Origin: a virus
DNA: 49,579 nucleotides
Virus record (IMG/VR): IMGVR_UViG_3300050120_000179
Coordinates: 1 to 49,579 of that record
Strand: one strand, 5' to 3'
The notes beneath the pieces were generated by a model. The model was not told the origin of the DNA. It saw only the letters and a list, made by a program, of their open reading frames with translations, and did no database searches. Shown piece by piece: positions 1 through 44,455 of the stretch (its first letter is position 1; every line of letters begins with the position of its first letter). The translations under genes were made by a program, and so were the position numbers.

Positions 1-186
1 CAGTCCGTTTTCGCTGGCCCTTAGACGTTCCTCACTATCATCCCGGATTTGATAGACTTTGATGTCTACATGCCACGGGGTCATTCTATTGTATTCTTCC
101 CAAGATATATGGTGCTGCTCTGTCAACTTATGGCCTACTTCGAAGTAGTCTATTAGTCGCTTGCCTTCAAAGGATATTGAAAAAAA
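1..186 (-). CDS. C-terminal frameshift extension of the tail assembly chaperone (partial, runs off left edge)
   Basis: This frame stays open from the slippery T7 run to the window edge but has no ATG near its beginning: a TGA lies just upstream of the T run and the first in-frame ATG is about 35 codons in. It is exactly the -1 frame relative to the chaperone gene ending at 153, so it is most simply a programmed -1 extension, like lambda gpGT relative to gpG. The visible part encodes about 60 acidic/aromatic residues, including EGKRLIDYFEVG. In long-tailed phages such an extension binds the tape measure protein. The real end lies outside the window. Confidence 0.6.
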
Positions 187-923
187 TCATTGATTCCATC
201 AAATCGGAACAACTTAGCCGCTCCACATTTTGGGCATTTGGTTTCAATTTTATGTTCAATCGACGGAAACTTGCTGAAGAAATGAGCATAAATGTCTTTC
301 TTGATAGTCAGTTCCAGATTGTTCAGGAACGCTAATCGTTCTTCCGGTGTGTAATTTTGTGCGTCGAACACTTCCTCTTCGGTGTAAATCTTGTCGATCA
401 GTCCTGCAATGATGTTGATTTCATTACTATCACCTTCAATACTATCCAATAGATCGAAGGTCGGATAGTGAAAGGACATGGAGTATTCATCGTTGATTTT
501 GAATGTTTTCTGAAATCCTTCCGGTTCCGCTATCTTGACTTCCTCAAGATTGACAATTACTTCCATCTTGTGATTACAAACTTCCTCAGTTCCTTCAAGT
601 TTTTCCTTGCAGGTATGATAGACGGTGATTTGTTCACCAACAGATTTCTGACGAATACGTAAGAAGAGGTCTTCGACTACCCAGGTTGGAAGCGTCCCCG
701 CGTCGATATCTGGGGTGACAATGCAGTCCTGTAGAACCTGTTTGACGCCATACAGAAGCTTGTGTTTGGCTTGAGTCGGATCGGTTTCCTTTTCCAGGTC
801 TTCCATGACAGACAACAGAATTGACTCATGTCCGATGTTGAAAGCCGTGTATTCGACCCCTTTTTTAGGCAACCACTGGTTTTTTACAATAAATTTTTGT
901 TTTACAATTACGGGTAACGTCAT
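153..923 (-). CDS. T4 gp26-like baseplate/tail assembly chaperone
   Basis: About 256 aa from the ATG at 923, which has AAAGG eight bases upstream; the upstream TTG in frame lacks this. The overall pattern fits the T4_baseplate (gp26) family: an N-terminal beta-rich part, a middle with paired cysteines (HTCKEK, EEVCNHK), and a C-terminal CPKCG zinc-ribbon-like pair. T4 gp26 acts in hub assembly. The slip site near the C terminus suggests it is the functional counterpart of gpG-type tape-measure chaperones. A CCTAAATA late-type octamer lies 33 bp upstream, fitting late expression. The protein ends 5 codons after the end of the T7 run when no frameshift occurs. Confidence 0.7.
   Translation of the reverse strand: MTLPVIVKQKFIVKNQWLPKKGVEYTAFNIGHESILLSVMEDLEKETDPTQAKHKLLYGVKQVLQDCIVTPDIDAGTLPTWVVEDLFLRIRQKSVGEQITVYHTCKEKLEGTEEVCNHKMEVIVNLEEVKIAEPEGFQKTFKINDEYSMSFHYPTFDLLDSIEGDSNEINIIAGLIDKIYTEEEVFDAQNYTPEERLAFLNNLELTIKKDIYAHFFSKFPSIEHKIETKCPKCGAAKLFRFDGINDFFQYPLKASD
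180..186 (-). other. Slippery heptamer T TTT TTT for -1 frameshifting
   Basis: On the minus strand the zero-frame codons are GAT TTT TTT CAA, giving the X-XXY-YYZ heptamer T TTT TTT. A -1 slip moves ribosomes from the chaperone frame (stop at 153-155) into the long open downstream frame. Six bases downstream is a small CCTT/AAGG hairpin (164-173), and a perfect 14-nt palindrome, CTACTTCGAAGTAG, lies at 135-148. Either could stimulate slipping. Confidence 0.6.
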
Positions 924-30918: not shown

Positions 30919-31353
30919 TCAGAATGTAAAAGTTTGTATATCTCCACCGCAGGTACTGTCGAACTGAATCGCTATTTCGACTGCTTCTACCGCATCCTTA
31001 CCACAGGCCATAGCGGCCAATGCAAAGGATTGACCGATTCCGATAGCAAAAGGCGGTTTGAATTGGAGTGGGTAAGGGGTATTGTTTTCATAGTGAAAGA
31101 CCTTACGGTTCTTTCCTTTGCCCTTGATCAACAGGGCTTCTACATTGTTTTCCCGTAGATATAAGGGATATTTGTCTGGGTTCGCACCCTTTTTGATCCA
31201 ATCAACGAATAATTCGAATCCGGAACAGACACCAGCCAATCCAATCACGCCTTTTTCTATTACAAATAGCTTTTGACCATAAGATTTCGTGGTTCCCGCC
31301 GTGTATTGGCTGTCTGTAGCCAAGGTTTTTCCATCATAGGCACAAATTGTCAT
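30919..31353 (-). CDS. HslV/proteasome-beta-like Ntn peptidase
   Basis: 144 aa from ATG 31353. After Met removal the N terminus is TICAYDGKTLATDSQ, giving a Thr nucleophile and the DGxxxATDSQ pattern of HslV. Later GLAGVCSGFE and GIGQSFALAAMACGKDA match the HslV core. No HslU ATPase is seen in the window; it may use a host unfoldase or work alone. Confidence 0.7.
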   Translation of the reverse strand: MTICAYDGKTLATDSQYTAGTTKSYGQKLFVIEKGVIGLAGVCSGFELFVDWIKKGANPDKYPLYLRENNVEALLIKGKGKNRKVFHYENNTPYPLQFKPPFAIGIGQSFALAAMACGKDAVEAVEIAIQFDSTCGGDIQTFTF

Positions 31354-31388
31354 TTCATTCCCTAAATCATTGTTATGGCTACACAATG

Positions 31389-34041: not shown

Positions 34042-34326
34042 TCATTGTGGTTGATTTACAACAACCTGAATGGTATTGTACTTAGTATCCCATTCGGCTT
34101 GATCAGTGCACAACCAAATAATGAATTCAATGAATGCTACGCACCCAGGGATATAGGTCCAACAGAATACCAGATACAGAACCCCTAACCAAGTTTTTCG
34201 GGTATAGAACTTGTGAATACCAAGTCCACCCAGGAAAAAGGCTAGAAGCAATGCTGTCTTTTTCTTGACGTATCGTTCTGCGGGAGCTACCAGTACAGTT
34301 TGTGTCGTTTGAACCGTATTCATCAT
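34042..34326 (-). CDS. TM2-domain membrane protein
   Basis: 94 aa. KKTALLLAFFLGGLGIHKFY then TWLGVLYLVFCWTYIPG gives two spans joined by the GxHKFY turn, the classic TM2 domain. Function of TM2 proteins is unclear. Confidence 0.85.
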   Translation of the reverse strand: MMNTVQTTQTVLVAPAERYVKKKTALLLAFFLGGLGIHKFYTRKTWLGVLYLVFCWTYIPGCVAFIEFIIWLCTDQAEWDTKYNTIQVVVNQPQ

Positions 34327-44379: not shown

Positions 44380-44455
44380 TGGTGGATGCGATAGGAATCG
44401 AACCTATTTCAACGGTTCTTCAAACCGCCGCTATGACCACATCAGCTACACATCC
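44380..44455 (-). tRNA. tRNA-Phe (GAA)
   Basis: Anticodon loop TTGAAGA (GAA), acceptor GGATGTG/CGCATCC, T-arm GGTTCGATTCC, A73 and CCA. Confidence 0.9.

Follow-up and report, generated by a model that had tools for sequence, protein, structure and literature searches.

A candidate −1 frameshift site links a gp26-like tail assembly chaperone to a gp51-type C-domain in a T4-type phage contig

Results

We analysed a window of 49,579 nt comprising the whole virus record IMGVR_UViG_3300050120_000179, in which base 1 is a contig end. At this end, a gp26-like gene on the minus strand contains an in-phase poly-T slippery heptamer, and a conserved C-terminal domain (C-domain) lies in the −1 frame. Judged from the sequence, the best reading is a programmed −1 frameshift that would yield a short and a long tail chaperone on the plan of lambda G/GT, to which we assign a probability of about 0.86.

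The gp26-like gene encodes a putative short form

The gp26-like tail assembly chaperone gene (153-923, minus strand) runs in the zero frame from ATG 923-921 to TAA 155-153 and encodes a predicted short form of 256 residues. The ORF matches PF12322 (E 6e-46, 157 bits against a cut-off of 24.5) and phrog_150, 'baseplate hub', the T4 gp26 family (E 3e-44). Matches to the protein are present in 869 phage records, the closest of them at about 35% identity. A query of IMG/VR for closer relatives with the Delftia gp26 returned PhiW-14 itself and nothing else. The adjoining genes encode a tail tube cap, wedge, tail tube, head closure, DNA end protector, single-strand binding protein and ligase, a neighbourhood that fits a T4-type myovirus.

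The predicted model of the protein has a pLDDT of 85. Among solved structures, its best match is the HK97 tail chaperone 2ob9 (Z 7.8 over 90 residues, 3.6 Å; next row 4.2), a Z value below the level graded clear by the structure-comparison tool. A Foldseek search with the protein gave E 5.4, and a sequence search of solved structures returned nothing relevant. The modest match of the model to the HK97 chaperone is suggestive of a tail assembly chaperone fold, and is not proof of it. Cysteines 105, 116, 230 and 233 of the protein are invariant within its own group, and C105 is the only one of the four among the invariant columns of the IMG/VR set. The CPKCG motif, slightly upstream of the slip site, resembles a zinc ribbon.

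Two further ORFs of the window were noted. A 155-residue ORF (30919-31386, minus strand) with MTICAYDGKTLATDSQ resembles by eye an N-terminal-nucleophile (proteasome-like) hydrolase, and its search against Pfam gave no match. A small TM2-domain membrane protein (PF05154, E 1e-15) is encoded at 34042-34326 on the minus strand.

A conserved C-domain follows the heptamer in the −1 frame

The heptamer T TTT TTT (180-186, minus strand) lies inside the 256-residue ORF in the phase GAT TTT TTT CAA, as a preliminary description of this DNA had reported, and relatives carry T TTT TTY at the same site. By itself the heptamer is unremarkable, since the window contains four 7-nt runs of T or A, and 35 in-frame heptamers of the type X XXY YYZ occur among the 13,289 codon positions of its longer ORFs. 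What is notable is that it lies in phase at the gp26 end and that the conserved C-domain comes next. One of the 17 phage tRNA genes, a tRNA-Phe (GAA) at 44380-44455 on the minus strand, would read both codons of the heptamer.

Entered at 180, the −1 frame begins SISFEGKRLIDYFEVGHKLTEQHHISWEEYNRMTPWHVDIKVYQI and, as initially claimed, stays open to base 1. These 60 codons (1-180, minus strand) constitute the putative C-domain of the long form, truncated because the contig stops within it. The frame matches phrog_634, 'baseplate hub assembly catalyst' (E 1.3e-7). A profile built from the −1 peptides of relatives, with the window and T4 left out, ranked it first of all window frames (E 5e-11; second-best frame E 0.08). 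By these homologies we take the −1 frame of the window to be coding.

The preliminary description had also stated that the −1 frame has no usable start of its own. This holds with a qualification: a TTG is found at residue 19 (124-126, minus strand), the first possible start codon, and an ATG, the first of the frame, at residue 33 (82-84, minus strand). Both lie within the conserved domain, and therefore neither could start the full-length domain. The profile alignment begins at residue 10, so conserved coding sequence extends upstream of TTG 126.

Relatives conserve the site and the frame

In all loci parsed from IMG/VR gp26 relatives, an in-phase heptamer is found at the homologous place, as NNT TTT TTC at the end of gp26. 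We assembled a set of these relatives, 14 isolate lineages chosen for having the heptamer, and the window; NNT TTT TTY is present in 74/74 distinct contexts and in 20/20 lineages at 70% identity. Elsewhere in the same genes, Phe is encoded by TTT in 67% of cases and 57% of Ser codons end in T. No p-value is given, because the lineages have a common ancestry and possession of the heptamer was the criterion for choosing the isolates. A plain argument for constraint on the site is that the codon before TTT TTY varies among AGT, TCT, GAT and AAT and its final base stays T.

In the examined phages outside the T4 group, Melnitz-3 included, it is the −1 frame that encodes the C-domain. Phage SRB7757 lacks any possible start (ATG, GTG or TTG) throughout its −1 ORF. 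In the window and in Melnitz-3, OC, ORM_20, Bakedbeans and Mosig, the first 13 codons of the −1 ORF contain none. A normal ATG for the downstream frame in homologues, named at the outset as counter-evidence, is absent from some phages and present in others: in many relatives one stands 3-7 codons past the slip site, and coupled initiation could therefore serve there. None of the annotation tables examined joins the two frames, and in several records the small ORF is absent or starts late. The annotated gp51-like ORFs of syn9, Bakedbeans, Mosig and OC begin inside the conserved C-domain, probably because a frameshift was not considered.

The next large gene in relatives is tail lysozyme-like, unassigned or weakly tape-measure-like. 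A neighbouring tape measure gene, as the preliminary description had expected, is not general among the relatives examined.

Cis signals are present in the group and weak in the window

Across the group, the Shine-Dalgarno-like (SD-like) duplex energy upstream of the site averages −6.5 kcal/mol, compared with −5.2 after synonymous recoding, and 0/200 recodings were as low. The 70 nt downstream of the site have a mean fold z of −2.0 relative to shuffled sequences, with most stretches upstream in the gene near 0. In the IMG/VR set, a cyanophage-type 5-bp hairpin located 10 nt downstream of the heptamer shows two-sided changes at 5/5 pairs and beats its controls, and 85% of its cells are paired.

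The window lacks the cis signals of the group. Its SD-like stretch GATGGAA (194-200, minus strand), 7 nt upstream of the heptamer, is weak, with a duplex energy of −3.3 kcal/mol compared with −9.8 in several relatives. The two downstream elements of the preliminary description exist in the sequence, at chance level: the small possible hairpin CCU(UUGA)AGG (164-173, minus strand), 6 nt from the heptamer, and the 14-nt palindrome CTACTTCGAAGTAG (135-148, minus strand), which starts 31 nt from it and is one of six perfect palindromes of this length in the window. For lengths of 40-170 nt, the downstream RNA has fold z-scores near 0, the best single stretch, of 40 nt, reaching −1.8. The hairpin was dropped as evidence for this reason, and on the fold scores and the number of such palindromes neither element is supported as a frameshift stimulator.

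Eight phages retain the −1 frame with a different junction

The initial expectation of a conserved T run followed by an open −1 frame is borne out, as T TTT TTY, in the 20 lineages. Eight other phages, namely Ackermannviridae, Vibrio Ackermann-like phages and Cygsa01, retain the −1 frame and lack the tandem heptamer. The Ackermannviridae SJ2, Magnus and phiMAM1 have the C-domain in the −1 frame as an unannotated ORF, with ATT TTC or GTT TTC at the junction. Near the end of their gp26 we found no close start codon, tandem heptamer, SD signal or fold signal. Vibrio phages K469, 207E48.1, D493 and 1.244.A and Pseudomonas phage Cygsa01 have NTT TTY together with an ATG that overlaps the stop codon. 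Among these five, K469 has a downstream fold z of −3.2 and Cygsa01 an SD-like stretch of −5.9.

Discussion

The lambda G/GT logic that the preliminary description proposed for this gp26-like chaperone has gained support from the conserved in-phase heptamer, the C-domain in the −1 frame, the fusion found in T4 gp51, the second gp26-type gene that T4 alone has among 11 phages, and the modest HK97 fold match. The heptamer, its phase, the open −1 frame, the homology of the C-domain, the absent upstream start and the T4 fusion can be read from the sequence itself.

From these features we infer that slippage occurs, at some rate, and that the products act as chaperones. Most ribosomes would stay in the zero frame up to TAA 155-153 and produce the short form (gp26, 256 residues). 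At T TTT TTT (186-180) a fraction would slip back by one base, as both Phe-tRNAs pair anew with UUU, and continue in the −1 frame to give a long form. This form would carry the C-domain, which corresponds to the C-terminus of T4 gp51. If the analogy with lambda G/GT holds, both forms would aid tail assembly at a fixed ratio.

It is also conceivable that the C-domain is a separate gene expressed by coupled re-initiation near the gp26 stop, the T run being merely a Phe-Phe codon pair. The TAATG or TGATG overlaps in PhiW-14, Cygsa01, Vibrio K469, 207E48.1, D493, 1.244.A, F86 and BUCT608 are what such an arrangement would look like, and in most annotations the small ORF begins at a start codon of its own. 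However, in the window no ATG, GTG or TTG precedes residue 19, which is already inside the domain, and SRB7757 offers no start at all. The M of Cygsa01 (HLMFELDL) aligns with I, A or S in SJ2, Bakedbeans and the window, and the third-base constraint on T TTT TTY likewise argues against a mere codon pair. We consider a separate gene improbable for the window.

Two explanations would place the event outside the ribosome, and we regard both as very improbable. RNA polymerase could slip on the T7 run of the window and add a U to some mRNAs, which would then encode the fusion; yet in most relatives the run has just six T's before a C, and its phase is always the one that tandem tRNA slippage needs and that slippage of the transcript would not. 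Alternatively, the true gene could have eight T's and one continuous ORF, the missing base being a homopolymer error of assembly. A homopolymer near the edge of a metagenomic contig invites this suspicion, but the same frame relation is found in independently sequenced phage genomes. The programmed −1 frameshift of the ribosome remains our preferred reading.

If we look beyond the window, T4-like phages might make one short/long chaperone pair in several ways: by a tandem-heptamer frameshift in the window and the cyanophages, by a heptamer-less −1 frame in the Ackermannviridae, by coupled starts in the Vibrio phages, and by gene duplication in T4. We put this forward tentatively and would not be surprised to see it revised. 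In the Ackermannviridae, expression is perhaps achieved by slippage of a single Phe-tRNA on U UUC, or from a non-standard start. We know of no description of such an expression mode for tail chaperones. Apart from this tentative scheme, our preferred reading means that the lambda-style chaperone frameshift reaches through deep T4-type lineages, and the relatives form a ready comparative set on how a recoded gene becomes two genes.

T4 itself provides the closest reference for the two parts. Its gp51 contains the gp26 domain (PF12322) at residues 1-201 with the C-domain at its end, and its gp26 the first part alone; by homology, gp51 is a natural in-frame fusion of both. PF12322 genes number two in T4 and one in each of the 10 other phages compared, so that the two-gene arrangement of T4 seems exceptional. 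Both the gp26 domain and the C-domain (phrog_634) of the window are homologous to the T4 proteins. While T4 has two divergently transcribed paralogues, the window, an incomplete genome, has two parts that overlap in two frames.

The slippery heptamer of lambda is G GGA AAG. In contrast, the window has a poly-T heptamer, a protein of family PF12322, and no tape measure gene seen adjoining. The −1 frameshift of lambda gpG/gpGT was reported by Xu, Hendrix and Duda (2004) and is reviewed in PMC5009743, where Atkins describes the G-T frameshift as widely conserved among long-tailed phages, T4 excepted. In the Vandenendeviridae and Andersonviridae, a tail assembly chaperone (TAC) frameshift takes place at GTTTTT (PMC12846349). 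These phages share with the window a poly-T site and a −1 extension of a myovirus tail chaperone, but belong to other families, and the likeness considered here is one of site and layout. Among the papers searched, none on a cyanophage chaperone frameshift was found, and the text of the GeneTack survey does not name baseplate genes.

Vladimirov, Gautam and Davidson (2022, Virology 566:9-15) identified TAC genes of T4-like phages, according to the works that cite them (PMC12846349, PMC10885494). On the basis of that study, PRFect describes the use of a short gene and a fusion gene by some T4-like phages (PMC10885494), and poly-T slippery sites in T4-like TAC-N genes are attributed to it in the paper on phage Adele (PMC12846349). 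Given these credits, a frameshifted T4-like chaperone is not new as an idea. As far as the citing papers convey it, the likeness lies in the short form, the long form made of the short form plus a C-terminal part, and the poly-T slippery sequences; the differences are that the window adds a lineage whose closest phage match has about 35% identity, and that the long form of T4 is a separate gene. The window is a further, probable example of the known frameshifted chaperone of T4-like phages.
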